Assembly (NCBI RefSeq): GCF_001908275.1
Contig: NZ_CP018620.1
Span: 5,394,001 to 5,458,000 of the forward strand
DNA from: Paenibacillus xylanexedens
GTDB lineage: Bacteria > Bacillota > Bacilli > Paenibacillales > Paenibacillaceae
Direction of reading: 5' to 3'
DNA length: 64,000 nt
This document shows positions 285-62,760 of this stretch, piece after piece (position 1 is the stretch's first letter; every line of letters starts with the position of its first letter). The notes beneath the pieces were generated by a model. It saw only the letters and a list, made by a program, of their open reading frames with translations, did not search any database and was not told the DNA's origin. The position numbers were made by a program, and so were the translations under genes.

Positions 285-446
285 AAAAATGTTTCACTCA
301 AGCACTCGGTTACAGAAAACCTTTCGAGCACTCTTGTCCCCAGATTTCTTCTCATTCCCCTTTCATGGGGAAATCCGGTGACAAAGGCGCACGCTTCGCT
401 TCTTCAGGTCCTTTCTGTCCCCTCCGTTGTCGTGTCATTCTTTAAA
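285..446 (+). repeat. Long-hairpin repeat family A, copy 1 (degenerate)
   Basis: Most diverged of five copies. It keeps the core stem TGTCCCCAGATTT / AAATCCGGTGACA around a CCCC...GGGG hairpin, the CAGAAA / TTTCTG stem, the CACGCTTCGCTTCTTCAGG segment and the CCTCCGTTGTCGTG end. The outer terminal repeats are no longer clear, so the limits are approximate. Confidence 0.6.
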
Positions 447-605
447 TTGATTTATTAGACATATTCAGAATCAAATGCCGATTAATTAACTTTGTTTAAT
501 AGGTATGGACATCATATCAATTGATTTGTCTGTGAGCAATGTCATTTCGCGGCAATTTTATTTTGTCATTTTGTGGTCTTTTCTCAGATTTAGGTCTTCC
601 TGATC

Positions 606-635
606 TTGAATATATATAAAACCCACCTGTATAAT
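606..635 (+). promoter_or_regulatory. Candidate sigma-A promoter for the AraC-family gene
   Basis: TTGAAT at 606-611 and a perfect TATAAT at 630-635 with an 18-bp spacer. Transcription from here would run through repeat B copy 1 before reaching the gene at 919, giving an untranslated leader of about 280 nt. Confidence 0.5.
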
Positions 636-650
636 AGGTTTAAATACGTG

Positions 651-853
651 TTCAAAAAGTCTGGTTTTCAGTACCGAGAAGATGGAATGAAGCTAGAAAT
701 GGAGTAGCGGAGCGTAGGAAAACTACGTGAGCAACCACAATGTTTCCAAAGGAAACATACTTCGTAAGCCTCCCGCTTATTTCGGCTGAATTTCAGCTTC
801 GATGTTGATGATGCCACTAGGCATGATTCGTAATCAAAAGTGGACTTTTTGAA
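651..853 (+). repeat. Repeat family B, full-length copy with 11-bp inverted ends
   Basis: Begins TTCAAAAAGTC and ends GACTTTTTGAA, a perfect 11-bp inverted pair. The interior is an imperfect palindrome centred on GTTTCC-AAA-GGAAAC, with GAAGCT / AGCTTC nearer the ends. There is no coding potential. It lies between the candidate promoter at 606-635 and the AraC-family start, so it would be transcribed as leader RNA. Shortened relatives lie at 23128-23158 and 57654-57697. The size and ends resemble a non-autonomous palindromic mobile repeat. Confidence 0.7.
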
Positions 854-918
854 CTACATCTATAAGCGAAACTTTTAGAATGTACAAACGATACTTATAT
901 AATAAAGAGGTGTTCCTG

Positions 919-1791
919 ATGACCGAGAGCATGAAGGAAGACCACCATGAGTTTTTGGATATTATTTTCTTCACTCCATCTGAATTCGAGAAAGCTGGTG
1001 GCGCCTGGCCGATTCGCATCGGCCGTAATATAGCCAAGACCAACTATCATATTGGCCCTCGTACCACACCTTATCATTATTTGCTATTTGTGCTGGAGGG
1101 GGAAGGTACATTCATACAGAACGGACAGCGTCATGCCCTTCGTTCCAGGGATGCATTCTGTCTGTTTCCACATGTTACCCATGAGTACTGGACTGATCCA
1201 GAGAACACGTTGCAGAAAATATTTATTGCCTTTGACGGCGCACATGCAGCCGAACTATTGTCTCGGATCGGACTTACACCCGACTCACCATACCGTTCAG
1301 GTGTACTGACACCGGAGACCGCAAGTGCGATGCGCGCATTTATGGAGGATGTTCGCCAACCACAGGACGGAGCGAGTGATCTGGGACGACTCACCCGGTT
1401 TCTAAACCTCTTTGACCGGATAGCCCGTTCCCCGGCAACCAAAGGATTGCAACCGGATTCAGCCACACCTTGGCTTCAGAAAGGCAAGGAATACATGGAC
1501 ATTCATTTTGCAGGCGGCATCTCCGTGGAAGGTGTGTCTGCTCATGCGGGTGTGGATCGAACCCATTTTGCCAAACAGTTCCGCAAAGCCTATGGTCTGT
1601 CCCCTGTGCAATATATCCAGCAATTGAAAATGACCCAAGCCAAACGTCTACTCGTGCAGACGCCGCTAAGCTTAACTGAAGTGGCTCATTCCGTAGGTTA
1701 CCCGGACTTGTTCTCCTTCTCCAAGGCGTTCAAAAAGCAAGTCGGTCTGCCGCCCAATCGCTATCGGACAGCGGAGAGCACGAAAGAGTAA
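919..1791 (+). CDS. AraC-family transcriptional regulator with cupin sensor domain
   Basis: 290 aa. Residues about 35-120 look like an AraC-type cupin sensor (GPRTTPYHYLLFVLEGEG, later LFPHVTHEY). Residues about 185-285 hold the two helix-turn-helix units, with the family pattern VDRTHFAKQFRKAYGLSP then LTEVAHSVGYPDLFSFSKAF. I chose the ATG at 919 because AAAGAGGTG sits 6 nt before it; the reading frame is open further up but without a ribosome site. Such regulators usually respond to sugars. No partner gene is adjacent on the same strand, so the target is unknown. Confidence 0.85.
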   Translation: MTESMKEDHHEFLDIIFFTPSEFEKAGGAWPIRIGRNIAKTNYHIGPRTTPYHYLLFVLEGEGTFIQNGQRHALRSRDAFCLFPHVTHEYWTDPENTLQKIFIAFDGAHAAELLSRIGLTPDSPYRSGVLTPETASAMRAFMEDVRQPQDGASDLGRLTRFLNLFDRIARSPATKGLQPDSATPWLQKGKEYMDIHFAGGISVEGVSAHAGVDRTHFAKQFRKAYGLSPVQYIQQLKMTQAKRLLVQTPLSLTEVAHSVGYPDLFSFSKAFKKQVGLPPNRYRTAESTKE

Positions 1792-1949
1792 GGGAGCGAC
1801 CTTTCGCTCCCCAGACTATAATCCATGCCTCATGCACCACGCATTGTGTACGGTTAGGTAAGATGTCTCCTTTACCAAATTGCAATGGACTCCTGAGATT
1901 CGTATCCTGTACATCATGGTGCTGCAAAATCCAGCACTAATCCACCACC

Positions 1950-1983
1950 AAAAAAAGCAAGCCCCATCTACCCGGGACTTGCC
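1950..1983 (-). terminator. Rho-independent terminator of the polysaccharide cluster
   Basis: On the minus strand GCAAGTCCC pairs with GGGGCTTGC and is followed by seven T. It lies 65 bp past the stop of the gene at 2049-2972. Confidence 0.75.
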
Positions 1984-2048
1984 TTCTTTCTATACTACAG
2001 TCTTGACGCACGTACTCGAAACCAGGAACTTTTTACATTGACGTAACG

Positions 2049-2972
2049 CTATTCCTTCTCCTCATTCTTACGCGCAAGCGGAATACCGTTCTCCTTGGCA
2101 TACCATGCTTCATAATGATGCACAGCCACACCTGCAAAAGAAGAATGAGAGGTACCGAGATCAAACACCTTTGCCATCTCTTCATTCATATTGCTAACCG
2201 GTTTACGGAAAAAGGTCAGGTGATCCCCCTCGTGTGTATCCGCGAGTTCCGCTCCGATCCAGACTTTCTTGCCCAGATCATCCGCTTCGTCCAGTTCTTC
2301 CTTGGACAGATCATACATCTGCTGTCCACTGTCCCGGTAAGCCATAATGGCCACCGCATCGAAGTGGGAGATCACCCAGCGACTGAATGTACCCTCACTT
2401 TCAGCCGACTGACGGGCATCAAGCCAGAACGGAATGGCAGCGCTCATGTACAGTCCGGCATCCTCGCCGGCTTTTGTCCAGGCCTTCATGTTGTTCTGCC
2501 ACTCTGCAATGATGCTGCTCTCCTCGTTCTCCCAGCGCTTCAGCTGATACGGCTCTACATCCAGTTGAATGCCTTCGAAACGTTCATTCTTGGCCGAAGC
2601 TGCATTGTATGCTCGTACTCGCTCGATAAAAGCAATTCCTTCATCCCGCTTCTCCTCATAGGCCCAGTCTGCATGACCGTTAAGTCCATGCACTTCAATC
2701 TCAGCCTGCCCTGCAGCCGCAATGAATTTGCGGTATGTTGCGTCAGGCACCTCATCCTGGATTTGCAGGAAGATGGTATCCACGCCCTGTTCTTTGGAAA
2801 AGGCAATAATCTCAGGCGTTTGTTCTGCAATAATGGACGCGTCCCACAGCCAGGTCGCTTTATGCTCCTCTGCCTGGAACCATTTGAACATCCAGGACAG
2901 AAGCAGCAGGCACAACACCACAGCCAGAATGGCCCATTTCGCCATACCCACCAGCTTGCCCCGTTGCCTCAT
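2049..2972 (-). CDS. Membrane-anchored TIM-barrel glycosidase-like protein
   Basis: 307 aa, start ATG with GAGGAA just before it. One N-terminal membrane anchor (residues about 12-30, AILAVVLCLLLLSWMF), then a domain with the rhythm of a glycoside-hydrolase TIM barrel: VDTIFLQIQDE, GIQLDVEPY with Asp and Glu at a strand end as in GH18-type barrels, MSAAIPFWLD, VAIMAYRD, and a closing GVAVHHYEAWY. I do not recognise a named family. Last gene of the leftward polysaccharide cluster, 8 bp after the dehydrogenase stop, so it may trim or process the polymer outside the membrane. Catalytic activity is inferred only. Confidence 0.65.
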   Translation of the reverse strand: MRQRGKLVGMAKWAILAVVLCLLLLSWMFKWFQAEEHKATWLWDASIIAEQTPEIIAFSKEQGVDTIFLQIQDEVPDATYRKFIAAAGQAEIEVHGLNGHADWAYEEKRDEGIAFIERVRAYNAASAKNERFEGIQLDVEPYQLKRWENEESSIIAEWQNNMKAWTKAGEDAGLYMSAAIPFWLDARQSAESEGTFSRWVISHFDAVAIMAYRDSGQQMYDLSKEELDEADDLGKKVWIGAELADTHEGDHLTFFRKPVSNMNEEMAKVFDLGTSHSSFAGVAVHHYEAWYAKENGIPLARKNEEKE

Positions 2973-2980
2973 ATATTTCC

Positions 2981-4348
2981 TCAGACGAGCAACGCTTCAC
3001 TTGGTTCAAGCACAGGATGCTGTACCGAGTGACCAATCTTGTAGATATGCGGATGTGTGTACGAACGGAATGCATTACGTGTATCCAGAATCGGCACACC
3101 CATCTCGGCAATATCAAAGTAAGGTAAATCGCTGTGGTTGGTGATCAGCACGATGCAATCGTACTTCTTGAACTGCTCCAGATTGAACACTTCGCTGTGA
3201 ACGGTCTCGCCATGTTTGTCCTGGAAGGAATCCGCATGTGGGTCGTAGTAGCTAACGTTAGCTCCACTTTCCTTGAACAGTTCATATACTTCCAGTCCTG
3301 GTGATTCACGCAGGTCGGCAATATTCGGCTTGTACGACATGCCAAGGAGCAGAATATTTGATTTACGTACGGATTTAGCGTATTCGTTCAGAATTGTTGA
3401 CGTTTTGTTCAATACATAATATGGCATGTTGTCATTGGTGGATTGCGCCAGCTCAATGAATTTGCTATAGAAACGGAAGCCTTTGGCCTTCCATGACAGG
3501 TACATCGGATCCAGCGGAATGCAGTGTCCACCGATGCCTGGGCCTGGATAGAATGGCATGAAACCAAATGGTTTCGTCGCCGCCGCGTCAATAACTTCCC
3601 AGATATCGATGCCCATGCGGTCACACATCATCGCCATTTCATTTACAAAGGCAATGTTCACACTGCGGAATGTGTTCTCCAGCAGTTTGGACATCTCAGC
3701 CACTTTTGGTGAAGATACCGGTACTACGGTTTCTACATATTTTCCATATAGCGCTGTTCCGAGCTTCAAGCAAGCTTCAGTTGTGCCCCCGATTACTTTC
3801 GGAGTATTAAATGTTGTGAAACGTCCGTTCGACGGGTCCACACGCTCAGGCGAGAAGCAGAGGAAATAGTCTTTACCTGCTTCTTGTCCGATTTTGTCCA
3901 GCTGCTGCTGGATCAGTTCTTCGGTTGTACCTGGATAAGTGGTGCTCTCCAGCGTAATCAGCATGCCTGGTTTCATGTGCAGTTTGATCTGATCCACAAC
4001 AGTCTCGATGTAAGACGTATCCGGGTCCTGATTCTCACTAAGCGGTGTCGGTACGCAGATACTGAGTGCGTCGATCACGCGCAGCATACTGTAATCTGTC
4101 GTTGGCTGGAAACGACCGCTTTGCATTACTTTTTTCAACTCATCGGACGAAATATCGTGAATATAGGAATCTCCTTGATAGATACTTTCTACTTTGGACG
4201 CATCCAGATCAATTCCGATTACCGTGAAACCTTGATTGACCATTTCCACGGCAAGTGGAAGTCCTACGTAACCGAGCCCGACGACGCCGAGTACAGCTTC
4301 TTTATTTTCAATCGCATTCAGTAATGTGTGGAATTGTTGATTCTCCAT
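2981..4348 (-). CDS. Nucleotide-sugar (UDP-hexose/UDP-HexNAc) 6-dehydrogenase
   Basis: 455 aa. N-terminal Rossmann domain with GVVGLGYVGLPLA, a middle linker helix, and the catalytic Cys motif GPGIGGHCIPLDP near residue 270. The C-terminal domain carries LLLGMSYKPNIADLRESP. This is the WbpA/TviB/UDP-glucose dehydrogenase superfamily, which oxidises C6 of a UDP-sugar to a uronate with two NAD+. The N-terminal layout and the NTFRSVNIAFVNE stretch favour a UDP-N-acetylhexosamine enzyme over UDP-glucose, but this is not decisive. In context it would supply an acidic sugar to the glycosyltransferase of the cluster. Ribosome site CGGAGGGA precedes the ATG. Confidence 0.88.
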   Translation of the reverse strand: MENQQFHTLLNAIENKEAVLGVVGLGYVGLPLAVEMVNQGFTVIGIDLDASKVESIYQGDSYIHDISSDELKKVMQSGRFQPTTDYSMLRVIDALSICVPTPLSENQDPDTSYIETVVDQIKLHMKPGMLITLESTTYPGTTEELIQQQLDKIGQEAGKDYFLCFSPERVDPSNGRFTTFNTPKVIGGTTEACLKLGTALYGKYVETVVPVSSPKVAEMSKLLENTFRSVNIAFVNEMAMMCDRMGIDIWEVIDAAATKPFGFMPFYPGPGIGGHCIPLDPMYLSWKAKGFRFYSKFIELAQSTNDNMPYYVLNKTSTILNEYAKSVRKSNILLLGMSYKPNIADLRESPGLEVYELFKESGANVSYYDPHADSFQDKHGETVHSEVFNLEQFKKYDCIVLITNHSDLPYFDIAEMGVPILDTRNAFRSYTHPHIYKIGHSVQHPVLEPSEALLV

Positions 4349-4503
4349 GATATTCCCTCCGGGCAGTGTATTTGGTGGTGCTTAAAATCCATATAAATAG
4401 ATGAGTGTCTGTGCTCTAAATGTTGCTCTAATCTATCTGATTCATAGTGTAAAAAAAAGCTCTTACTTTGCACTTCACACAATCAGTTGTTCCAAGCTGT
4501 CTT

Positions 4504-5307
4504 CTAGTGCAGGCAACGTCTGATTCGTGCATCCAGCTCTACAGGTGAGAACGGTTTGGTCATGTAATCATCCACGCCGCTGCGGAAGCATTGACTAATC
4601 GTCTGCTCGACACGTTGTTCGGTCAACACGACAATTTTGGGTGGCTGCTCCATCTCCAGGTTCTGAATATGATGGATGAAGGGCAGACCATCGATGCCAT
4701 ACAGATTCAGTTCGGTGAGCACCAGGTCAGGTGTGACTTTCTCGATCAACTCCAGTGCAGCCAGTCCATCGACGGCTTCATAGGTTTCGTATCCCTGCAT
4801 CTTCAACCGCAATTGCAGGAATTCGCGTACCGTAGGATCGTTGTCCACAATCAAAATGCGTTCCGGCTCGTCCGCCGTATTGTCCAGCGTGTAGATATGA
4901 ATCTCCGACGAATCTACGAGCTTCGAGGACTCAGCCATATGCTGAATAGTTGCCTTCGAAGGGCGCTCCCCTTCCGGGAAACTGGCCAGTGTAATCTGTG
5001 GATCGGCACCGGGCAGAGTCTCTTGCAGCTCATGTTTGATCCGAAGCCCTTCATAGTGAACTTCATCCAGTGACAACCCTGGCAGCAGGACGGCAATCGC
5101 CTGGGTGGCCCCATCCTTCCACACCTGGAAGGCAGACTCACTCGTTTGCTCCAGATGTGTCCTGACCTGCTGCTCAGGTTGAGAGTTTCCTGCACAATGG
5201 ATGAACATTAAGCCGCATGTTTCGGCACCCGTTTCCTTCAATCCCTGTTCTACACTTCGGTACACATTAACGGCAGCCTCACGCTGCAATGTCGCCGTAT
5301 TTGGCAT
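4504..5307 (-). CDS. Degenerate GGDEF plus atypical receiver-domain protein
   Basis: 267 aa from the ATG at 5307. Residues about 10-140 align with the second half of a GGDEF domain (AIAVLLPGLSLDEV matches the usual FAVLLPGTSLEEA), but the signature is replaced by GATQA, so no cyclase activity is expected. Residues about 148-267 form a receiver domain: ILIVDNDP acid pair, switch Thr in VVLTEQ, Lys in TKPFS. At the phospho-acceptor position the sequence is PDLVLTEL, Glu instead of Asp (codon 4711-4713), so normal phosphorylation is not expected. No output DNA-binding domain. Inside the polysaccharide cluster it may bind c-di-GMP or act as a protein partner controlling synthesis, much as degenerate-GGDEF YdaK does in B. 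subtilis. That role is inference. Confidence 0.75.
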   Translation of the reverse strand: MPNTATLQREAAVNVYRSVEQGLKETGAETCGLMFIHCAGNSQPEQQVRTHLEQTSESAFQVWKDGATQAIAVLLPGLSLDEVHYEGLRIKHELQETLPGADPQITLASFPEGERPSKATIQHMAESSKLVDSSEIHIYTLDNTADEPERILIVDNDPTVREFLQLRLKMQGYETYEAVDGLAALELIEKVTPDLVLTELNLYGIDGLPFIHHIQNLEMEQPPKIVVLTEQRVEQTISQCFRSGVDDYMTKPFSPVELDARIRRCLH

Positions 5308-5336
5308 GTTCTTTTCCACCCTTCTCCTCGATTATC

Positions 5337-5563
5337 TATATAAGTCCAAAAAATATTATTTACACTGACACTCCGATGACAGAACAGCCTTTCGATCACT
5401 GTTATCCCCAGATTTTTTGATTCCTTTATACAAGGGGAAATCCGGAGATAAGCGTATGCTTTCGATGCAGCTTTCTTTCAGAAAGCTTTTAGGTGCACGC
5501 TTCGCTTCTTCAGGCTTTTTCTGCCCTCTCCGTTATCGTGTAAATGTCTAGTTGGACATATAA
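5337..5563 (+). repeat. Long-hairpin repeat family A, copy 2 (inside the polysaccharide cluster)
   Basis: Ends TATATAAGTCCAA and TTGGACATATAA. The next stem is ATTTACAC / GTGTAAAT, then CAGAA / TTCTG with AGCCT / AGGCT, then the core TTATCCCCAGATTT / AAATCCGGAGATAA. It carries an extra block of about 40 nt with its own AGCTTTC / GAAAGCT hairpin. It lies between the glycosyltransferase stop and the receiver-protein start, so an operon transcript would contain it. Confidence 0.8.
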
Positions 5564-5583
5564 TTGCTTTGATTATTCTTTAA

Positions 5584-6984: not shown

Positions 6985-7006
6985 GCCGTAGATTAATAGT
7001 AGATCC

Positions 7007-8215: not shown

Positions 8216-8241
8216 GTGAAAAGGTCCTCCTTTATACTCAT

Positions 8242-19522: not shown

Positions 19523-19558
19523 ATTACCAAACAATCATTCGATGTAATTTGGTTTTTA

Positions 19559-19742
19559 TAAAATGAACTCCAGCTACACAACAACGGAGAGTGCAGAACC
19601 AATCTGAAGAAGCGAAGCGTGCGCCTTTATCCCCGGATTTTACCCTTTAGAAAAGGGAATCAAAAAAATCCGGGGATAACAGCGATCGGAAGATGGTACT
19701 GCACTCGGAGTGGTCACGTGTAACACCCTGTAGTTCATTTTA
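19559..19742 (-). repeat. Long-hairpin repeat family A, copy 3 (inverted orientation)
   Basis: Ends TAAAATGAACT and AGTTCATTTTA, an exact 11-bp inverse. The second stem is GAGTGCAG / CTGCACTC with ACCA / TGGT; other copies have GACAG / CTGTC here, so both sides changed together. The core is a perfect TTATCCCCGGATTT / AAATCCGGGGATAA. It carries the conserved GAAGAAGCGAAGCGTGCGC strand in the reverse sense. Confidence 0.85.
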
Positions 19743-19767
19743 CCCCACCCAACATTACATAGAATCC

Positions 19768-47909: not shown

Positions 47910-49682
47910 ATGGCATTGGACGGCATTGTAACACGGGCCATTGTTCATGAACTGCAAGGCTGCATTGGTGGACGTATCAGCAAAATCCATCAGCCGAATG
48001 GCCATGACGTAGTTCTCACCCTGCGTGCTCAGCGCGGAAATAGTAAATTGCTTGTTTCGGCAAGCCCAACCTATCCCCGTGTGCATTATACGGAAAAGAC
48101 ATTCCTTAACCCTACGGAAGCACCCATGTTCTGCATGTTGCTCCGTAAGCACTGTGAAGGTGCAATCATTGAGGAGATCCGTCAGATTGGCATGGAGCGT
48201 ATTATCCACATCAATGTGCGCCAGCGCGACGAACTGGGGGATGTTTCGGTTAAACGGATCATCATTGAATTGATGGGGCGTCACAGTAATATTATTTTGC
48301 TTGATCCTGTTACAGGAACGATTCTGGATGGCATTCATCATGTGACTCCTTCCATCAGTAGCTACCGGGTAATCATGCCTGGATTCGCGTATACTGCCCC
48401 ACCCGAGCAACATAAAAGTAATCCGCTCGAAGTGAGTCGTACAGCATTCGAGGACAGCTATCATGCCGCTGAAGAAGATGCATCACGCTGGCTTGTGAAC
48501 TCCTTTAGCGGTCTTAGCCCGTTAATTGCGGGAGAGATTGCTGCTCGTGGAATTGCTGCTGAAGGCACAGTGAGTACTCAAGCTGTGGTTGAGGGTGAAA
48601 GCCGAGTTGAGGCTGGTGCACTCTGGAACGCTTTTGAAGCCGTGATGGGGCCTGTCAGAGATCATATCTACACACCTGTAACCGGAATGAACGCCAAAGG
48701 CAAAATGATTTTCTCGGCCGTTCATCTTCAGAGCATTCAGGACTTGGAGAAAACCTATGACACGATGAGCAAGTGCATGGAGGATTACTACGGAGACAAG
48801 GCAGAACGGGACACGGTTAAACAGAGAGTAAGTGATCTGCTCCGTTTTCTGCAGAATGAGCGAAGCAAAAACATCAAAAAGCTGGACAACCTGAACAAGG
48901 ATCTGCTGGAAGCGGACGATGCGGACAAGTTCAGACTATGGGGTGAGTTGCTGTTTGCCTCCCTGCATCAGGTTCACAAAGGGGACAAGAGCGTGGAGCT
49001 TGTGAACTTCTACGATGAAGACCAAGCCAACATTACCATTCAGCTTGATCCACTGCTCACACCGTCTGACAACGCACAACGTTATTTCAAGCGTTATAAC
49101 AAATATAAGAACAGTCTGGCTGTCATTCATGAGCAGCTTGGCAAAACCAAAGACGAGATCGACTATCTCGATAACCTGTTACAGCAGCTCTCCATTGCAT
49201 CGATGAACGATATTGAGGAAATACGGGACGAGCTTGTACAGCAAGGATACCTTCGTGACCGTAATAAAAAGGGTAAAAAGAAGAAGAAAAGTGACCGTCC
49301 AACCGTACACCAGTTCACCTCCTCCGAGGGGATTGATATTCTTGTGGGCAAAAACAACCTGCAAAATGAGTATGTGACCAACCGTCTTGCTTCTTCCAAC
49401 GACACCTGGCTGCATACCAAAGACATTCCAGGTTCACATGTCGTTATTCGCAGTACAGACTTTGGTGAAGCTACATTGGAAGAAGCAGCTCAGCTTGCTG
49501 CCTACTTCAGCCAAGCCAAGGAGTCCAGCAGTGTGCCTGTGGATTACACGTTTATCCGTCATGTGCGCAAACCAAGTGGTGCGAAGCCTGGTTTTGTGAT
49601 CTATGATCATCAGAAGACGTTGTTTGTCACGCCAAATGATGAATTGATCAAGAGTCTGCCATCCACGATTAAAAATGGATAG
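47910..49682 (+). CDS. rqcH: Ribosome quality-control protein RqcH (Rqc2, NFACT family)
   Basis: 590 aa from the ATG at 47910 (MALDGIVTRAIVHELQG, with GAGAGAGGAA upstream); a GTG nine bases earlier is the alternative. NFACT-N domain 1-200 (GGRISKIHQPNGHDVVL), helix-hairpin-helix, long coiled coil about 280-430, then the NFACT-R RNA-binding domain from about 445 with ILVGKNNLQNEYVTNRLA and TWLHTKDIPGSHVVIR. It binds obstructed 50S subunits and directs poly-alanine tailing. A basic linker KKGKKKKKSDRP precedes NFACT-R. Repeat A copy 4 begins 3 bp past the stop. Confidence 0.93.
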   Translation: MALDGIVTRAIVHELQGCIGGRISKIHQPNGHDVVLTLRAQRGNSKLLVSASPTYPRVHYTEKTFLNPTEAPMFCMLLRKHCEGAIIEEIRQIGMERIIHINVRQRDELGDVSVKRIIIELMGRHSNIILLDPVTGTILDGIHHVTPSISSYRVIMPGFAYTAPPEQHKSNPLEVSRTAFEDSYHAAEEDASRWLVNSFSGLSPLIAGEIAARGIAAEGTVSTQAVVEGESRVEAGALWNAFEAVMGPVRDHIYTPVTGMNAKGKMIFSAVHLQSIQDLEKTYDTMSKCMEDYYGDKAERDTVKQRVSDLLRFLQNERSKNIKKLDNLNKDLLEADDADKFRLWGELLFASLHQVHKGDKSVELVNFYDEDQANITIQLDPLLTPSDNAQRYFKRYNKYKNSLAVIHEQLGKTKDEIDYLDNLLQQLSIASMNDIEEIRDELVQQGYLRDRNKKGKKKKKSDRPTVHQFTSSEGIDILVGKNNLQNEYVTNRLASSNDTWLHTKDIPGSHVVIRSTDFGEATLEEAAQLAAYFSQAKESSSVPVDYTFIRHVRKPSGAKPGFVIYDHQKTLFVTPNDELIKSLPSTIKNG

Positions 49683-49685
49683 TAT

Positions 49686-49874
49686 ATATAAGTTGAACTA
49701 AAGATTATTTACACTGACACTACGATGACAGAACAACCTTCCAATCGCTGTTATCCCCAGATTTTTCTGATCCCCTTTTTCAAGGGTAAATCCGGGGATA
49801 AAGGCGAACGCTCCGCTTTTTCAGGTTTTTTCTGTCCTCTCCGTTAACGAATAAATGATTAGTTCAACTTATAT
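49686..49874 (+). repeat. Long-hairpin repeat family A, copy 4
   Basis: Best-preserved ends: ATATAAGTTGAACTAA and TTAGTTCAACTTATAT are exact 16-bp inverses. Inside: GACAGAA / TTCTGTC, AACCT / AGGTT, TTATCCCC-GATTT / AAATC-GGGGATAA, and a small CCCCTT...AAGGG top hairpin. The unpaired side strand GGCGAACGCTCCGCTTTTTC is kept. Lies at the 3' end of rqcH. Confidence 0.88.
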
Positions 49875-49894
49875 AGATGTAATAGTAACAATAG

Positions 49895-50508: not shown

Positions 50509-50522
50509 ACTATTTTCAGAAC

Positions 50523-53212: not shown

Positions 53213-53231
53213 AGAGCGACCCCAAAGGGTC
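53213..53231 (-). terminator. Possible terminator of ylbG
   Basis: Minus strand: short GACCC-TTT-GGGGTC stem followed by GCTCTTTTCTT. The stem is short, so this is tentative. Confidence 0.45.
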
Positions 53232-53246
53232 CCTCCAGTTTCTCGT

Positions 53247-53510: not shown

Positions 53511-53540
53511 CATCGTTCCCCGCCCTTCTATAATGATGAC

Positions 53541-53978
53541 TTAACTGCAACCACACTTGCCGCCACTACCGCAGCCGCCCTTTGGATTCGGGTCATTACT
53601 CGGTACCTTAATGGTCGTTGACACTGCAAATGCAATGGTCTCTGACATCTGAAATAACATATCATCCAGGGACTTCTCTGCCTGTTTGAAGCGGATTACC
53701 GCCTCGAAATTTTCCAACTCCTGTTCCAGAGCCTTCACCTGGTCTTTTGCTGCATGATAATCCGGGTGAAAATGACCGAAACGCTGTGTTTCTTCAAACA
53801 ATTCCTTCTTGGCATTCAGCTTCCGAATCCCCATCTGAATCTCAGGGGTAGTCTCGACTTGCTGCTTCCAATATAAATAATCCGATACTTCGGCAGATTG
53901 GTTAATCATGTCGCCCAGTTCATATGCGCCCGTTAACACTTGGGCCATATCGACCGTGTTCATTTCCGCTACGCTCAT
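53541..53978 (-). CDS. ricF: RicF (YlbF), subunit of the Y-complex
   Basis: 145 aa, mostly helical (YlbF/YmcA fold): AYELGDMINQSAEVSDYLYW, PEIQMGIRKLNAKKELFEE and a coiled segment to about 110. The C-terminus ends GGCGSGGKCGCS with three Cys, the region shown in the RicAFT complex to take part in [4Fe-4S] binding. The complex steers RNase Y cleavage of operon transcripts and affects sporulation and biofilm choice. Partners ricA and ricT are not in this window. Confidence 0.88.
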   Translation of the reverse strand: MSVAEMNTVDMAQVLTGAYELGDMINQSAEVSDYLYWKQQVETTPEIQMGIRKLNAKKELFEETQRFGHFHPDYHAAKDQVKALEQELENFEAVIRFKQAEKSLDDMLFQMSETIAFAVSTTIKVPSNDPNPKGGCGSGGKCGCS

Positions 53979-54130
53979 GAAATATTCATCCTATCTATAT
54001 ATAAAGTTCTACTTAACGTAGACTACCTCATCATAGCATATCCATGAATAGTTAAGAAGAGTTTTTCCTGCAATTAGAAATAGGGGGAACTCTAAAATTC
54101 GCCTTTCAACCTGATATTCACGTGAAATAG

Positions 54131-55849: not shown

Positions 55850-55885
55850 ATCCCAATCCCTCCTCTTTTCGCGAGTATAAATGGA

Positions 55886-57580
55886 CTATTCGTTCTCATG
55901 AACGATGGCATATTCATATCCCTGCTCCACCAAGAACATCTGACGGTTTAATGCAAACTCCTGTTCCTTACTATCCTCTGATACCAACGCATAAAAATAT
56001 GCTTTGTTTTCTCCATCTTTTGGTCTCAGAATTCTCCCCAAACGTTGTGCCTCTTCCTGCCTTGACCCGAAACTCCCGGATATCTCAAGCGCAACAGCAG
56101 CATCGGGCAAATCCACTGCAAAATTAGCAACCTTGGATACCACAATTGTTTTAATCTCTCCACGTCGAAAAGCGGCAAACCACTTGATTCGCTCTTGCTG
56201 TGACATGGTTCCCGAGATCAAAGGTGCTTCAATTTCCCGGGCAATCAACTCAAGTTGATCCAGATATTGTCCAATCACTAACGCAGGCAAATCCCGATGA
56301 CGTTCCAGCAAACGCTTGACTACACGTACCTTCGCCGGATTCTCGGCAGCCAATCGAAATTGGTGCTTAACCTCTGCTTGCAGATAATTCGATCTTAGTT
56401 CCGAGGAAAATGGGATACGTATCTCCTGGCATTGTACATCCGCAATCCACCCTTGCTGCTCCAGTTGTTTCCACGGCATATCATAGAGCTTCGGACCAAT
56501 CAGCGAGAAAACATCCTGTTCACAGCCATCCTCTCGAACCAATGTAGCCGTTAATCCCAGCCTTCGCGTAGCTTGAATATCCGCAGTTGCACGAAACACT
56601 GGTGCTGGCAGCAAATGTACTTCATCATATATGATCAGCCCCCATTGCCGCTCACTGAGCAGTTTGATGTGGGTAAAATCAGCATCCTTTGATTTCCGGT
56701 GTGTAAGAATCTGATATGTAGCTACAGTCACAGGTTTCACCTGTTTTTTCTGACCAGAATACTCACCGATCTGTTCGCTGGTAATCGTGGTTTTGTCTTG
56801 AATTTCCTGAATCCACTGTCGCACAGACGTTGTATTAGACGTCAAAATAAGGCATTCACATTGAAGCCGCTCCAGCACGGCCATGCCAATGACTGTTTTT
56901 CCTGCCCCGCAAGGAAGTACGAGTAAACCGCTTCCTCCCATGCCCTCACTGCCTTCGAATGCATCCACAGCCTCTCTCTGGTAAGAACGCAGCGCAAACC
57001 GCTCAGAGTGGTCACCCGGATCATTAGACCGCCAATCAAATGAAAGCTTGGTTCCCTCCCGATATCCCACGTAATCAAGTACGGGGTAACCCAATCGTGT
57101 TAATTCCCTTTTTAATAACCCTCGCTGTTCTCCTGGGAGCAGAAGTTCATGAGCGTCCTTACGTTCCATGCGAAAGGCAGCTATTGTTTTCAATCCACTT
57201 AATTCATCCAGCAACCGCTCATCCTCACTGTAAAGGCGCATTCTGGTGTGATCTGCTTCGGAATGCAGCTTTAATTTGCCATACTGATCCATGATTCTCC
57301 GAACATCCTGTATCAGTGCAGCAGGCACGTTCCAGCGGGATACCAGCTCCAAACTTGCGATGACCTGATCTGCATTCCATCCCAGCGCAGCCGCATTCCA
57401 GAGCGATAACGGAGTGATTCGGTAGGTATGAAACGCTGCCGGTGTCTTAACCAGTTCTGAATACATCCCAAGCTGCTCTCTTGCTCTTTCAAATCCGGGG
57501 TGACCAACTTCCAGCAAAACTGTAAAATCTCGCTGAACGATACAAGCATCTGTCCTTACCGTATGTTCTGTTTCTTCCAT
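55886..57580 (-). CDS. DNA repair helicase, bacterial XPB type (superfamily 2)
   Basis: 564 aa from ATG 57580, which has AGGAGG 10 nt before it. N-terminal damage-recognition-like domain about 1-190, then helicase domain 1 with Walker A LPCGAGKTVIG, DEVH box IIYDEVHLLPAP, TATLVREDG with the Arg-Glu-Asp motif special to XPB, and helicase domain 2 with ALVIGQYLDQL and EEAQRLGRILRPK. Archaeal and mycobacterial relatives unwind DNA 3'-5'. The RED motif separates it from ordinary DEAH proteins. Confidence 0.88.
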   Translation of the reverse strand: MEETEHTVRTDACIVQRDFTVLLEVGHPGFERAREQLGMYSELVKTPAAFHTYRITPLSLWNAAALGWNADQVIASLELVSRWNVPAALIQDVRRIMDQYGKLKLHSEADHTRMRLYSEDERLLDELSGLKTIAAFRMERKDAHELLLPGEQRGLLKRELTRLGYPVLDYVGYREGTKLSFDWRSNDPGDHSERFALRSYQREAVDAFEGSEGMGGSGLLVLPCGAGKTVIGMAVLERLQCECLILTSNTTSVRQWIQEIQDKTTITSEQIGEYSGQKKQVKPVTVATYQILTHRKSKDADFTHIKLLSERQWGLIIYDEVHLLPAPVFRATADIQATRRLGLTATLVREDGCEQDVFSLIGPKLYDMPWKQLEQQGWIADVQCQEIRIPFSSELRSNYLQAEVKHQFRLAAENPAKVRVVKRLLERHRDLPALVIGQYLDQLELIAREIEAPLISGTMSQQERIKWFAAFRRGEIKTIVVSKVANFAVDLPDAAVALEISGSFGSRQEEAQRLGRILRPKDGENKAYFYALVSEDSKEQEFALNRQMFLVEQGYEYAIVHENE

Positions 57581-57653
57581 TTGGAGCATTCCTCCTATCA
57601 CAAAAAAAGTTCAGTTCCGGCAGCTTCCGAAAATGAACCTGTATAATTGCGAA

Positions 57654-57697
57654 TTCAAAAAGTTTGGTTTTCAGTACCGATAAGTGGACTTTTTGGA
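57654..57697. repeat. Repeat family B, short copy with internal deletion
   Basis: Keeps both ends of the copy at 651-853, TTCAAAAAGT plus TGGTTTTCAGTACCGA on the left and TAAGTGGACTTTTTGG on the right, and lacks the 150 bp or so between. The likeness goes past the right end (ACATCTATAA in both). Lies upstream of the XPB gene. Confidence 0.7.
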
Positions 57698-57716
57698 CAA
57701 CATCTATAAAAATCCA

Positions 57717-57757
57717 CAAAAAAAACATCCTGCCCATACCTCGGTATGAACAGGATG
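57717..57757 (-). terminator. Terminator of the M20 amidohydrolase gene
   Basis: Minus strand: GCATCCTGTTCATACC pairs with GGTATGGGCAGGATG (two mismatches), followed by a run of T. Confidence 0.9.
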
Positions 57758-57774
57758 CCCAACTAGCTATAAAG

Positions 57775-58944
57775 TCATTCGGCTGTGTAACCCTTGGCCA
57801 TTGCGATAAATAATCTCACGGCAGTCTGCATCGCGTCTTCATCAAAATCAAACATCGGATGATGATGCGGATAGATCGCATTTTTATCCGGGTTGCCTGC
57901 TCCAACAAACATAAAGCACCCTGGAACCTTCTGCAGATAATAGGCAAAATCTTCCGCTGGCATCAGCATCGGGGAAGCTTGCACTCGTTCTGCCCCAAAT
58001 AGTTCTGTAGCTTCTCTGAAGAAACGTGCTGTCTCCTGTTCATCATTCACCACAGGCGGATATCCCATAATATATTTCACTTGCGTCTCTGCCCCATACG
58101 CTGCCCCTGTCTGGGCTACCATGGTAAGCACGCGCTCTTTCATCCCGTTTCGGGTCTCTTCATCAAACGTTCTTACCGTACCGCTCATTTTGCATTGCTC
58201 TGCAATTACATTCTGAGCCGAGCCCGCCTGCATTGTACCAATGGTCAGCACCGCCGGTTGCAATGGATCAACCGAACGACTAACAACGGTCTGAAGCTGC
58301 ATCACAAGCGCAGAACCCGCGATAAGACTATCTATCGTGGATTGTGGCATCCCGCCATGTCCACCTTTGCCTTTGATCTCAATGTAAAAATCGTCCGCCG
58401 CCGCCATCATCGGTCCTGCTTTACTGGCAACAACACCTACAGGTAGCGGGGTCCACAGATGAATGCCGTATATGACATCCACGCCTTCAAGCGCACCATC
58501 CGCAATGACCTGAACTGCGCCGCCCGGAAGCAGTTCTTCTGCTGGCTGGAACAAAAAACGAATCTCTCCTTGGATCTCCTGCTTGTGACGGCTGAAATAC
58601 AATGCCGTACCGAGCAAGATTGAGATATGACCATCGTGGCCGCATGCATGCATCGCTCCTACTTGTTGTGATGCATACTCGATATTCTTTTCATCCTGAA
58701 TTGGAAGTGCATCCATATCAGCTCGCAGCATGACGACAGGACCCGACTTGTCCCCACGAATGGTACCGATGACCCCGTGACCACCAACATGACGCCTCAC
58801 TTCAACACCAAAACTCTCCAACATATCCGCTACAAAAGAGGATGTCTTCTCCTCATGAAAGGAAACCTCAGGATTGCGATGAAGGTGACGCCGCCATTCC
58901 ACCATGTGGATCTGCAGATCTTCCCACCATACATTATTAGTCAT
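57775..58944 (-). CDS. M20-family amidohydrolase (N-acyl-L-amino acid / hippurate type)
   Basis: 389 aa; ATG 58944 with GGGTGGAG upstream. Metal-binding motifs of M20D peptidases: RRHLHRNPEVSFHE, VMLRADMDALPI, MHACGHDGH, FLFQPAEELLPGGA and MPAEDFAYYL. A dimerisation domain lies about 180-290 (GKGGHGGMPQSTID). Releases an acyl group from N-acyl amino acids, or a related substrate. Related IAA-amino-acid or acetyl-diaminopimelate hydrolases cannot be excluded. Confidence 0.88.
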   Translation of the reverse strand: MTNNVWWEDLQIHMVEWRRHLHRNPEVSFHEEKTSSFVADMLESFGVEVRRHVGGHGVIGTIRGDKSGPVVMLRADMDALPIQDEKNIEYASQQVGAMHACGHDGHISILLGTALYFSRHKQEIQGEIRFLFQPAEELLPGGAVQVIADGALEGVDVIYGIHLWTPLPVGVVASKAGPMMAAADDFYIEIKGKGGHGGMPQSTIDSLIAGSALVMQLQTVVSRSVDPLQPAVLTIGTMQAGSAQNVIAEQCKMSGTVRTFDEETRNGMKERVLTMVAQTGAAYGAETQVKYIMGYPPVVNDEQETARFFREATELFGAERVQASPMLMPAEDFAYYLQKVPGCFMFVGAGNPDKNAIYPHHHPMFDFDEDAMQTAVRLFIAMAKGYTAE

Positions 58945-59066
58945 GTCTCTCCACCCTTTCAATCTTAAACGGGACTTGGATCAAGCCCGAACCTACCTCT
59001 TCAAACCTATTGCTGTATATTGTAGCAGAATTGGAAGAAAACCGATACGAAACGCCTTTGGAAAGC

Positions 59067-59095
59067 TTGCACGGGAAGGGGAAACATACTATCAT
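59067..59095 (+). promoter_or_regulatory. Promoter of yugN-ftsW
   Basis: TTGCAC (59067-59072), 17-bp spacer, TATCAT (59090-59095), 60 bp before the yugN ATG. Confidence 0.6.
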
Positions 59096-59154
59096 GAACT
59101 AGAGAAATACTCGAGAAATTATACTCGGAAGCTTATGAGGAGGATCAAACGCTT

Positions 59155-59502
59155 ATGATTTTTGAGAATACAGGCTTGGATGGCTTGAAGAGCGACTTGG
59201 CATACCTGGATGAGAGCGCCGAGAAAGTCGGATTTGTCCGGTGGCAATGGGAATATTACCGTGCTACATATGACTACAAAATTGAAGATGAACAAACCAA
59301 CTCAGAATACTTTGTACGCATTAATACCCGCGCTGTGGAAGGCAAATTGGAAAAACCGGATACCGTTCTTGCTGTTGAAGCAGTATACCTTGGCAAAGCC
59401 ACTTTCCCTCACGGCCTGGATTATGACTCTTCCGTTCCGCAACCAGTCGTGAAGCTGGCAGCCGAAAAATTACAGCAGCTTAAAGAACTGCTGGAAGCAT
59501 AG
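59155..59502 (+). CDS. YugN-like family protein
   Basis: 115 aa, start ATG with GAGGAGGATC upstream. Matches the YugN-like family by MIFENTGLDGL, WQWEYYRATYDYKIED, FVRINTRAVEGKLE and FPHGLDYDSSVP. Single soluble domain of unknown function. ftsW follows after 13 bp, so they share a transcript. Confidence 0.78.
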   Translation: MIFENTGLDGLKSDLAYLDESAEKVGFVRWQWEYYRATYDYKIEDEQTNSEYFVRINTRAVEGKLEKPDTVLAVEAVYLGKATFPHGLDYDSSVPQPVVKLAAEKLQQLKELLEA

Positions 59503-59515
59503 GCTGGGCCAAACG

Positions 59516-60805
59516 ATGAAACAACAAACGGCCCAAACGAAAACGAAGAGAGGCACGCCGGATTTTCAACTGCTAATCCTCACTTTATTGTTGGTGGGCT
59601 TTGGACTGGTGATGGTATTCAGCTCCAGTTCCAGCATTGCAATCGCAAGCGATAAATTTAACAATGATGCCCTTTACTTCACGAAAAAACAACTTATGTG
59701 GGCGATTATCGGTCTATTTGGCATGTTTTTTGCCATGAATATCCGTTTCAACAAGTACAAAAAGCTCTATGCACCCTTTTTCCTGCTCACTACGGTCATG
59801 CTGGTGATTGTTTTGATCTCAGGTGCAGTATTGAACGGTGCACGAAGCTGGATTCACATTTTTGGTTTCAGTCTTCAGCCTGCGGAATTCGCAAAAATTG
59901 CTATCATTCTATACCTCTCTGCACTGATCACCAAAAAAGGTGAAGGCTTCAGGGTTTTCAAGACAGGGTATTTTCCCGTCCTGTTTATCGTCGGATTCAT
60001 CGCAGGGCTGATTATGCTGCAACCAGACTTCGGTACCACCTTCATTCTGGTGTCCACCTGTGGTCTCTTGATCTATGCCGGTGGAGCCAGTATGAAACAT
60101 ATCCTGGGTTCAATTCTCCTGGTTGTACTCGGTGGGGCACTGGCGTTCGGAGCGAATTCCCTGTTTTCTTCCATGTCTCCTTCCGACACAACGACTGCTA
60201 CAACAGCAGTCACTGCGGAGCAGAACTACAAGATCGGACGTATTCAGGCTTTCCTTGATCCAATGTCCGATATTAATGGCGGAAGTCTTAACCTCTACCG
60301 TTCTCTTGTTGCCATTGGTGATGGCGGCATGACAGGTTCCGGGATTGGACAAGGTACGATGAAGCTGCATTATTTGCCAAACGCGTATAATGACTTTATT
60401 TTCTCCGTAATCGGGGAAGAACTCGGATTCATCGGAAGTGCATTATTCCTGCTAGTTTACCTGTACTTCATCTGGCGCGGAATCATTGTCTCTCTTCGCT
60501 GTCCCGATCCATTCGGAACACTGGTCGGCATAGGTATCATGGGACTGATCGCGATTCAGGCATTTATCAACATTGGTGGTGTAACTCAGACCATTCCGGT
60601 GACGGGGGTCACGCTTCCATTTATCAGTTATGGGGGTACCTCACTCTTTGTGATGATGGTTGCCATGGGCATTCTGCTCAGTATCTCACGTACTAACAAT
60701 CTGGACGTGATCAAGGAAGAGAAAACGAAGTCAGTGACTGTACAGACACAGACTCGTACCTCTCCTGCTCTTCGTTCACGGGAGTCCATCCGTCGGATTC
60801 GGTAA
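59516..60805 (+). CDS. ftsW: Peptidoglycan glycosyltransferase FtsW (SEDS family)
   Basis: 429 aa with about ten membrane helices. SEDS motifs: GLVMVFSSSSSIA in helix 1, LNGARSWIHIFGFSLQPAEFAK, YKIGRIQAFLDP in the large extracellular loop, FIFSVIGEELGFIG with the catalytic-site region, and PVTGVTLPFISYGGTSLF. SpoVE or RodA are possible from sequence alone; nearness to ylaN, which flanks ftsW in B. subtilis, supports FtsW. The loop contains an uncommon Thr/Ala run (DTTTATTAVTAEQ). Confidence 0.82.
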   Translation: MKQQTAQTKTKRGTPDFQLLILTLLLVGFGLVMVFSSSSSIAIASDKFNNDALYFTKKQLMWAIIGLFGMFFAMNIRFNKYKKLYAPFFLLTTVMLVIVLISGAVLNGARSWIHIFGFSLQPAEFAKIAIILYLSALITKKGEGFRVFKTGYFPVLFIVGFIAGLIMLQPDFGTTFILVSTCGLLIYAGGASMKHILGSILLVVLGGALAFGANSLFSSMSPSDTTTATTAVTAEQNYKIGRIQAFLDPMSDINGGSLNLYRSLVAIGDGGMTGSGIGQGTMKLHYLPNAYNDFIFSVIGEELGFIGSALFLLVYLYFIWRGIIVSLRCPDPFGTLVGIGIMGLIAIQAFINIGGVTQTIPVTGVTLPFISYGGTSLFVMMVAMGILLSISRTNNLDVIKEEKTKSVTVQTQTRTSPALRSRESIRRIR

Positions 60806-60816
60806 AAAAGCAACTC

Positions 60817-60855
60817 AAAAAAGGCTGTGCACCCAATGGATGCGCAGCCTTTTTC
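60817..60855 (+). terminator. Bidirectional terminator between ftsW and asp23
   Basis: GGCTGTGCA and TGCGCAGCC pair over nine positions (one G-U), with A run on the left and T run on the right. Confidence 0.88.
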
Positions 60856-60934
60856 TGTGTACTCGTTACTATTCTGTCTATCAAGATGAAGAACAGGTCA
60901 ATATCGCTCTGTCCTCCATTGCGGATTGCGATTT

Positions 60935-61297
60935 CTACAGATCGTCGCCTTTGAAAGATACGCCTTCTACCTTTACATTGACTTCAACCACGCGTAATCC
61001 GGTCATGGTCTCTACCGCTTCTCTTACATTCTGCTGAAGCATACGGGAAACTTCATGAATCGGGGTTTCGTACAGGACGATGATGCGCAGGTCAATGGCT
61101 GCTTCCAGCTGGCCGACCTCAACGCTCACGCCTTTCTGTACGTTTTTACCGCTGAGTCGCTTCGCCCAGCCCTCTGACAATCCTCCAGACATTGCGGCAA
61201 TTCCGGGTGTTTCCATTGCAGCCATTCCGGCAATTTTTGCAACCACGTCATCGGCAATCCGGATGTTTCCGCTCTCCAGTTGAAGTTGTTCTGCCAT
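60935..61297 (-). CDS. Asp23/Gls24 family envelope stress protein
   Basis: 120 aa. Family pattern GNIRIADDVVAKIAGMAAMETPGIAAMSGG at the N-terminus (here cut into two), then GVSVEVGQLEAAIDLRIIVLYETPIHEVSRML and VVEVNVKVEGVSF. These proteins sit under the membrane via partners such as AmaP and affect envelope stress. It stands alone, away from fakA, where the usual yloU copy is missing. GGAGGATG precedes the ATG. Confidence 0.9.
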   Translation of the reverse strand: MAEQLQLESGNIRIADDVVAKIAGMAAMETPGIAAMSGGLSEGWAKRLSGKNVQKGVSVEVGQLEAAIDLRIIVLYETPIHEVSRMLQQNVREAVETMTGLRVVEVNVKVEGVSFKGDDL

Positions 61298-61480
61298 GCC
61301 ACATCCTCCTTCACTTCGTTACTCGTATTTTAAATCCTTTCCACCCCAAAAAGCAAATTAAACTCAAAAAGATGCGTTTACAACCTACCACCATTTGGTT
61401 ATATTGAAATATGAAAATAATCTCATAAGCGATTTACAGTGTTATTCAAAACAAAATAATTTATAACCGAGGTGTTTGTT

Positions 61481-62551
61481 GTGAGAAACCGGATTTCATC
61501 CATTTTGCTGATTGCGTTCTTTGCACTCAGTGCCATCGCCCACTACATGAAATGGGATTCGATTCTACAGTTCGTGATATCAGCCATTTCGGTTATTTTT
61601 GTGGCCGGTTTTTTAGGCAAAGCCACCGAAAATGTGGCCCACTACGCCGGACAGCGGCTGGGTGGATTCTTGAATGCCACCTTCGGCAATGCTGCCGAAT
61701 TGATCATCGCCATTTTCCTCGTCAAAGAGGGACTCTTCGACATGGTCAAAGCTAGTCTGACAGGTTCCATCATCGGAAATCTGCTGTTAGTGCTCGGGTT
61801 AAGTATTTTTGCCGGAGGACTCAAGTTCAAAATTCAGAATTATAATGTTTCACTTGCAGGTCTGAATGGTTCCCTGATGATTGTTGCCATCATTGCCCTG
61901 TTTATTCCGGCAGTCTTTCTCAACACACATTCCATTACACAGAAAGACACAAATACACTTAGTCTCATCGTGGCCGGATTGCTCATCCTCGCGTATATTG
62001 CGTGGTTGCTATTCTCCATGGTGACACATAAGAACTACCTCGCAGACGTCACTGAGGATCGCGATGAAGAGCTACCTCATGAGCATGCTCCGGCATGGTC
62101 CAAGAAAAAATCAATTCTCTATCTGGTGCTCGCAACAGTCATGGTTGCCTTCGTCAGTGAATGGCTGGTGGGCACGCTCGAAGTCTTCACTTCGGAATTT
62201 GGACTTAGCGAACTGTTTGTCGGTGCATTCCTTGTCGCCATCATCGGTAATGCAGCCGAACACAGTGCAGCCATCATGCTTGCCATGAAAAATAAAATTG
62301 GAGCCGCCGTTGAAATTGCGGTTGGCAGCAGCTTGCAGATCGCACTCTTCGTTGCTCCTGTACTGATTTTTGTCAGCTACTTCACAGGCAGAACCATGGA
62401 TATCGTATTCACAACGATTGAACTGGTCGCCATCGGCGTATCCGTATTTATTGCGAAGTCCATTACCCAAGATGGTTCAACGAATTGGTACGAAGGTTTA
62501 CTCCTGCTCGTGGTATATATCATACTCGGTGTATCCTTCTTCCTGGTGTAA
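61481..62551 (+). CDS. Calcium/proton antiporter (CAX family)
   Basis: 356 aa from a GTG at 61481 (CGAGGTG upstream; an in-frame GTG nine bases earlier overlaps the ribosome site). About 11 membrane helices. The two signature repeats are ATFGNAAELIIAIFL in helix 2-3 and AIIGNAAEHSAAIMLAM in helix 7-8, which bind Ca2+. An acidic loop EDRDEELPHEHA separates the halves. Exports Ca2+ in exchange for H+. B. subtilis YfkE (ChaA) is the likely counterpart. Together with the ATPase at 44696 this gives two calcium exporters. Confidence 0.92.
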   Translation: MRNRISSILLIAFFALSAIAHYMKWDSILQFVISAISVIFVAGFLGKATENVAHYAGQRLGGFLNATFGNAAELIIAIFLVKEGLFDMVKASLTGSIIGNLLLVLGLSIFAGGLKFKIQNYNVSLAGLNGSLMIVAIIALFIPAVFLNTHSITQKDTNTLSLIVAGLLILAYIAWLLFSMVTHKNYLADVTEDRDEELPHEHAPAWSKKKSILYLVLATVMVAFVSEWLVGTLEVFTSEFGLSELFVGAFLVAIIGNAAEHSAAIMLAMKNKIGAAVEIAVGSSLQIALFVAPVLIFVSYFTGRTMDIVFTTIELVAIGVSVFIAKSITQDGSTNWYEGLLLLVVYIILGVSFFLV

Positions 62552-62568
62552 CCAGGCCCTCACCAAGC

Positions 62569-62760
62569 TATATAAGTTAAACTAAAGAATATTTACACTG
62601 GACACTCCGATGACAGAACAACCTTCCGATCGCTGTTATCCCCTGATTTTTTTGATTCCTTTTATAAAGGGGTAAATCCGGGGATAAAGGCGAACGCTCC
62701 GCTTCTTCAGGTTATTTCTGTCCTCTCCGTTTTGTGTAAATGTTTAGTTAAATTTATATA
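62569..62760 (+). repeat. Long-hairpin repeat family A, copy 5
   Basis: Ends TATATAAGTTAAACTAAA and TTTAGTTAAATTTATATA (16 of 18 paired). Then TTTACAC / GTGTAAA, GACAGAA / TTCTGTC, AACCT / AGGTT, core TTATCCCC-GATTT / AAATC-GGGGATAA and CCTTT / AAAGG top. The side strand GGCGAACGCTCCGCTTCTTC is identical in sense to copy 4. Confidence 0.88.

Follow-up and report, generated by a model that had tools for sequence, protein, structure and literature searches.

A widespread IS630-type MITE of Paenibacillus that probably carries a structured RNA domain

The window analysed here, a 64,000-nucleotide stretch of a Paenibacillus genome, contains five copies of a short non-coding mobile element (Table 1), of which the host genome (G000) holds at least 147. 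This number comes from searching the complete genome with a covariance model. It is a lower bound, since scoring covered 150 of the 2206 first-look candidates and weaker copies could be missing. The five copies reported in the first-pass annotation were all recovered at the positions given there, and the genome-wide search revealed no others in the window. Each folds into a single long hairpin, as had been claimed, and the paired base differences quoted between copies are present in the sequence. The outer inverted ends were borne out in copy 4, in which both arms are intact, but in copy 1 they have decayed so far that they no longer make a good inverted repeat. The annotation recognised no named family; likewise, a search of the window against Rfam 15 returned no family match at the gathering score, and at nine loci, with E values up to 1, a lone sub-threshold match (ROSE_2) fell outside the element. 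Searches of the mainly open-access literature yielded no description of the Paenibacillus element and no paper combining IS630, MITE and Paenibacillus. The family was found in 32 of 36 genomes of the genus, and in none of 23 genomes outside it.

Table 1. Copies of the element and their parts in the window. Strands given for copies are the inferred RNA (sense) strand, opposite to the strand read in the first-pass annotation.
Feature	Positions	Strand	Description	Basis
Copy 1	266..462	-	decayed ends, type A core	covariance model, folding
Copy 2	5333..5569	-	type A with extra internal module	covariance model, ortholog comparison
Internal module of copy 2	5457..5492	-	whole insert a few bases longer	36-base pattern match
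Copy 3	19551..19750	+	type B lower stem	covariance model, ortholog comparison
Copy 4	49681..49879	-	type A, terminal inverted repeats intact on both sides	covariance model
Terminal inverted repeat of copy 4, arm 1	49687..49701	+		exact match to TATAAGTTSAACTAA
Terminal inverted repeat of copy 4, arm 2	49859..49873	-		exact match to TATAAGTTSAACTAA
Copy 5	62565..62764	-	type A	covariance model

The element is an IS630-type MITE, because its terminal inverted repeats match those of IS630 transposons, and because a site that is occupied in one relative may be short or empty in another. The match covers the outer ~20 bp on each side and involves IS630-family transposons from other Paenibacillus. 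Where the IS630 transposase was 75% or more identical to that of locus L346 in genome G006, 10 of 11 loci had both ends (two of the ten being one insertion), with an end-to-end spacing of ~1.12-1.17 kb. They occurred together at none of the 14 loci with more distant transposases, and the shuffled-locus control for end matches gave 0.05 per locus. The L346 transposon has the same terminal repeats in the same CTATATA..TATATAG context, with ~20 bp per end common to the MITE by eye, and differs in being of the autonomous type with a transposase. It has inserted into a Mutator-type transposase gene, at a CTAG site, and read by eye it is flanked on either side by TA, a clear target duplication. In MITE sites compared by eye, the length fits a TA duplication for copy 5 and for a G022/G024 site versus G000, while another comparison is off by one base, the TA-rich ends making the register ambiguous. 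The ends of the element pair because they are transposon ends. The refuting match named in the first-pass annotation, to a known MITE with a transposase of identical ends, thus applies to the ends.

The consensus of ~200 bp has stops in all six translated frames, so that the element has no transposase gene of its own and a coding core is ruled out. A DDE_3 search of the host genome gave no match, and movement there at present would be hypothetical. An autonomous parent in the host was also sought among 97 listed places that differ from the terminal repeat by no more than one base; the single pair of them spaced at ~1.7 kb encloses a GTPase-like gene and not a transposase.

Sixty-nine full-versus-short comparisons of orthologous sites were listed, some of which are rearrangements and not clean empty sites. 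The site of copy 4 is short or empty in G022, G024 and G008 and internally deleted in G025 and G011, and the site of copy 5 lacks the element in G022, G023 and G016. Subtypes also differ at one and the same site: copy 3, type B in the window, is type A in its G024 ortholog, and the switch affects both arms at once, both here and at G000 position 5392819. Many of the paired changes between copies are therefore whole-subfamily differences, interchangeable at one locus, and not in-place compensatory mutations. The internal module is gained and lost at fixed sites among orthologs (that of copy 2 is missing from the G024 ortholog). It occurs at 69 sites in G000, versus none in the reversed control: 55 inside copies listed by the covariance model, 13 in further copies (10 fetched regions and L333) and one ~40 bases outside a listed copy. 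Since 68 of the 69 sites fall inside copies of the element, the module is regarded as part of the family, and a separate mobile family was rejected.

Tests of covariation gave mixed results. When the structure was given, 91.1% of the cells in a 32-copy alignment paired, compared to 42-48% with the partner slid, and 28 pairs had changed on both sides, versus a shuffled mean of 10.6 (none of 500 shuffles reached 28). On a tree of 200 distinct copies, in which subfamily switching inflates the counts, both partners changed on the same branch 25 times in the core (null 2.7, sd 1.5, never above 7 in 500) and 74 times in the ends (null 40.1, sd 5.5). A stricter test on 103 model-aligned copies, which used the G statistic and a pooled null, left only 2 of 73 pairs significant, and within loci the core displayed one double Watson-Crick change versus 58 single ones.

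The direction of the single changes was more informative. On the strand read in the first-pass annotation (the annotated strand), single changes from a Watson-Crick pair in the core stems gave A.C 74 times and G.T 13 times, whereas the ends gave A.C 114 and G.T 138. An A.C on the annotated strand is a G.U on the opposite one, and the opposite strand is accordingly the one read as RNA. The core bias was similar in the 97 copies not fetched by pattern (A.C 40, G.T 5) and the 103 pattern-fetched copies (39 and 8), and within 40 orthologous loci (23 and 6 in the core, 20 and 27 in the ends). In unpaired core columns, G>A did not outnumber C>T. The opposite-strand core folded better in 179 of 200 copies (mean -43.6 versus -39.0 kcal/mol); the unpaired strand described as conserved is indeed kept in sequence, but is better read on this opposite strand. 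The contrast appeared only when stems were split and a structure-free alignment was used; it is hidden in model-aligned cell counts over all pairs (130 G.T, 150 A.C). Several results speak against the RNA reading. Counts over all helices gave 47 G.T and 54 A.C, and the core pattern is not followed by the top hairpin (G.T 52, A.C 40) or by the GATTT stem (4 to 3). In the core, all 32 of 32 copies have T.G at one pair on the annotated strand, and thus C.A on the inferred RNA strand, and core pairs are often broken outright (82 transversions). A SAM riboswitch control, tiny at 12 distinct sequences, gave G.U 4 and A.C 1. Because a double-stranded cruciform predicts no strand difference, it is disfavoured for the core. 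Of the original alternatives, an RNA or cruciform versus a palindromic mobile repeat, mobility thus holds for the ends and RNA-like wobble for the core. Judged from these sequence comparisons, the element is probably a MITE with an RNA domain that is under selection on the complement of the annotated strand.

Gene conversion, or correction between arms and copies templated by the hairpin, could also generate paired changes with no selection for pairing. The joint switching of both arms between orthologs and the coming and going of the internal module at fixed sites agree with such a process, which may still contribute to subfamily differences. Arm-to-arm correction, however, lacks a preference for wobble orientation, unlike the core (13 to 74, as against 138 to 114 in the ends), and a comparison by eye of copy 2 with its ortholog in G024 suggests a paired change via G.U intermediates; as a full explanation, conversion is unlikely.

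We consider it quite unlikely that the element is a plain IS630 MITE, whose hairpin would be a by-product of its origin and whose core would have no function of its own. Terminal inverted repeats, presence and absence at sites, and subfamily structure would account for its copy number and spread; many resident copies carry mismatches, and whole elements are not unusually conserved. Including subtype switches, their identity between G000 and the two closest relatives in the comparison was 90.2 and 90.0%, no higher than that of third codon positions (92.0 and 91.2%). A by-product, however, would leave G.T and A.C balanced in every stem, which they are not in the core, and its ends should be no less conserved than its core. 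In contrast, the core diverges about half as fast between orthologs: in 42 of 65 ortholog pairs, those at least 88% alike, divergence was 4.2% in paired core positions, 9.2% in the ends and outer stem, and 13.0% in the top loop.

The inferred RNA strand is sense to both flanking genes in 72 of the 81 copies located between co-directional genes; 24 copies lie between divergent genes. Orientation also tracks the replication arm, with 18 plus and 46 minus copies in the 0.41-3.76 Mb interval and 67 plus and 16 minus elsewhere (0 of 300 permutations, on a coarser breakpoint grid). This tracking, together with the existence of G.T wobble in DNA, would fit selection of the strand as a single-stranded DNA hairpin on the lagging-strand template. 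Copies nevertheless follow their genes even where these run against the leading direction (6 of 8, versus 60 of 66 with it; Fisher p 1.2e-4, copies not all independent), and IS630-type DDE transposition uses double-stranded DNA, which makes such a hairpin a highly improbable explanation. An intrinsic terminator or REP-like 3' element is extremely unlikely: the hairpin is strong and often near gene ends, and the plus strand of copy 4 has one terminator-like site, but copy 5 has none inside (a terminator-like site sits just outside), the consensus lacks a T-run after the sense hairpin (by eye), and the 72 copies between co-directional genes and the 24 between divergent genes would block expression.

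For a MITE carrying an RNA domain, the following course may be proposed. With ends that are those of the IS630 transposons of the genus, the element would have been moved in trans by an IS630 transposase into TA or CTAG sites. In the long run, as the orientation bias shows, copies tend to lie with one strand sense to the neighbouring genes, and this strand would be transcribed within mRNA, 3' of, between or 5' of genes. On the sense strand, the core is predicted to form a long hairpin that includes an internal loop and a small GCGNAGC mini-hairpin, and selection would keep this fold after the ends decay, consistent with the wobble signature. The fold might render the insert harmless or useful in mRNA, perhaps by guiding processing or shielding transcript ends. 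A bolder and tentative reading of the sequences is a genus-wide selfish element with a new class of structured RNA as cargo, which would serve as a portable module for mRNA processing or expression. Its subfamilies would share an apical domain and have one of three lower stems, unrelated to one another but each self-complementary, together with the mini-hairpin and a side hairpin that is optional and can be repeated in tandem; a borrowed IS630 transposase would have spread it, and the core would then have been kept in mRNAs, in some places without the ends.

Comparable repeats are described in other Firmicutes. According to the account of the bcr1-bcr18 repeats of the Bacillus cereus group (PMC3446304), about half of the repeat copies are found in mRNAs, bcr1-3 being MITE-like and bcr10 and bcr18 regarded as RNA elements. 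Compared by description only, they resemble the Paenibacillus element as intergenic repeats of Firmicutes, but their MITE-like and RNA-like families are kept apart (PMC3446304), whereas the Paenibacillus element would combine both features. The BOX elements of Streptococcus pneumoniae are described as modular, structured and co-transcribed, with proposed effects on expression; in contrast to the present element, their modules repeat otherwise and their ends are related to ISSpn2 (PMC3049150). RUP of S. pneumoniae is given as 107 bp long, with 110 copies in the genome studied, terminal inverted repeats similar to IS630-Spn1, a tight predicted fold and 60.9% of copies on the leading strand (PMC3049150). 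Both are short, non-coding, high-copy elements with IS630-type ends. As far as the description of RUP goes, the Paenibacillus element differs in its length (~190-200 bp), large core, stronger sense bias and host (PMC3049150). The optional internal module, the alternative lower stems and the core wobble test pertain to the Paenibacillus element only.

Drawings of bacterial MITEs as folded RNA are common, but they usually do not settle whether the fold is under selection or simply results from the inverted repeats. In the present element the strand test comes out one way for the ends and the other way for the core, so that the two possibilities can be told apart. The comparison of G.U with A.C changes offers a cheap test for other repeat families. 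If the proposed RNA domain is real, well over a hundred copies per genome would place one RNA fold in many mRNAs, where its effect would be easy to measure across copies by RNA-seq.

All five copies of the hairpin element reported in the first-pass annotation were confirmed in place, each with the one-hairpin fold claimed for it, and a model search of the whole genome found no sixth copy in the window among the candidates scored. The pairing of their arms, also claimed there, is genuine: 91.1% of cells paired in 32 copies, compared with 42-48% when the partner was slid. In the host genome (G000), the model search yielded at least 147 copies, a lower bound because scoring covered 150 of the 2206 first-look candidates, and 11 additional copies were observed beyond these. 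With a single copy as DNA query, the element was detected in 32 of 36 genomes of the same genus (own included) and in none of 23 genomes representing the order's other genera. A DNA pattern matched at least 120 stretches in named genomes, and the 80 titles among the matches listed were all Paenibacillus.

Intact copies terminate in CTATATAAGTTGAACTAA and its complement, and a GAAC/CAAC variant also occurs. PF13358 (DDE_3, the IS630 transposase domain) had no match in G000, so the family looks orphaned there. When relatives were searched with this domain, one locus (L346) carried the element's ends on both sides of a transposase, and extending the search to 75 genomes of the genus revealed 25 loci. 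The transposase frames are IS630-type. Both ends, spaced 1.12-1.17 kb, were found in 10 of the 11 loci with at least 75% transposase identity to L346 (two of the 10 being one and the same insertion) and in none of the 14 with 58% or less. By eye, the L346 transposon is inserted at CTAG inside a Mutator-family transposase gene, with TA on either side. The GAAC/CAAC variant is also found among the transposons (L368), so transposition accounts for the base pairing between the outer ends.

The core was analyzed by the direction of its mispairs. One transition from a Watson-Crick pair gives G.T or A.C (stated here on the strand first written); RNA of one strand tolerates G.U and not A.C, and the opposite strand reverses both. 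Two hundred distinct copies were aligned to the consensus from sequence alone, and changes were mapped onto a tree. In the ends and outer stem, G.T arose 138 times and A.C 114 times, compared with 13 and 74 times in the core stems (p 1.6e-11); the positive control for this test was small. Because 103 of the copies had been fetched with a pattern fixing part of the core, the copies were split: core counts were 5 G.T and 40 A.C in the 97 non-pattern copies, and 8 and 39 in the pattern-fetched set. Within 40 orthologous loci (each change counted once per locus, pairs at least 88% alike, GATTT stem included in the core), they were 6 and 23, with 27 and 20 in the ends. In unpaired core columns G>A was not in excess over C>T, and T>C slightly outnumbered A>G, a bias too small to account for the asymmetry. 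From this asymmetry we infer that the core behaves as RNA of the opposite (sense) strand. The earlier structured-RNA proposal is supported for the core, on the strand opposite to the one written, and set aside for the outer ends.

The sense strand gave the better fold in 179 of 200 cores. Across 42 of 65 pairs of orthologous copies, divergence was 4.2% in the core stems, 9.2% in the ends and outer stem and 13.0% in the top loop. GNA loops of the GCGNAGC kind are unusually stable, and this mini-hairpin is retained on the sense strand, its six fixed positions being kept in 88-96 of the 97 non-pattern copies, with N variable. By eye, one pair of window copy 2 is G-C in G000, A.C (sense-strand G.U) in the relative G024 and A-T in the family consensus, suggesting a path of change via sense-strand wobble.

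Of 128 copies with context, 81 sit between co-directional genes, 72 of them in sense. Sense copies numbered 60 of 66 where such genes run along the leading direction and 6 of 8 where they run against it; orientation is therefore tied more closely to the genes than to replication, on small numbers, with genes taken as simple open frames and some copies mutually orthologous.

Several observations count against an RNA core: 2 of 73 pairs pass a stricter covariation test, double changes within loci are scarce, one T.G pair is invariant on the strand first written, the GATTT stem and top hairpin depart from the wobble pattern, and whole elements are not unusually conserved.

Among 276 distinct copies, motifs assigned the lower stem to types A (206), B (14) and C (20), with 36 unclassified. 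With as many as 4 errors tolerated and no shuffled control, both ends were recognised in 148, 10 and 2 copies of the three types, respectively. Type C (L415, L419, L420, L191, L193 and others) combines the common apical core with a different self-complementary lower stem, and in 12 of 20 the IS630 ends are unrecognisable on either side. At window copy 3 and G000 5392819, relatives carry another subtype at the same site, both arms having switched together. An internal module of ~40 bases is gained or lost between orthologous copies, including window copy 2, and is doubled or tripled in tandem elsewhere. Over 800 kb of G000 compared with syntenic 400-kb stretches of four relatives (G024, G022, G023 and G016), many full copies in one genome corresponded to short or empty sites in another, the flanking DNA being mostly >90% identical. 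A TA duplication fits the site length at some sites and is ambiguous at others. Some of the short sites reflect deletions inside the element, as in G025 and G011 at copy 4.

Individual loci with variant, partial or transposon-borne sequences (L, fetched locus)
Locus	Position	Feature
L333	G000 C1:1381250-1381560	Internal module, three in tandem
L418		Internal module, doubled
G000	3713997	Internal module, doubled
G000	C1:5673711-5674234	Partial copies clustered in tandem
G000	5326345-5327146	Partial copies clustered in tandem
L091	4032-4157	Core-type copy with TTGTCTCC/GGAGACAA replacing TTATCCCC/GGGGATAA; A-T to G-C difference from the L097 copy in following stem
L097	7848-7973	Ortholog of L091 copy, same replacement
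L346	972-2010	IS630 transposase split over two frames around an A run, which may reflect programmed frameshifting or an inactivated gene
L330	3423-3441 (G000 C1:6404923)	Solitary terminal repeat ~1.5 kb from a full copy, no adjoining core
L334	G000 C1:4314243-4314337	95-bp deletion derivative, both ends retained; the deletion apparently joins GTTATC direct repeats, as in the G025 copy of site 4

Repeats of the bcr type in B. cereus frequently occur in mRNAs (PMC3446304). The S. pneumoniae RUP folds tightly, carries ends resembling those of IS630-Spn1 and lies on the leading strand in 60.9% of its copies (PMC3049150). The Paenibacillus element resembles RUP in how its ends work, and differs in showing evidence of a selected core fold on the sense strand.
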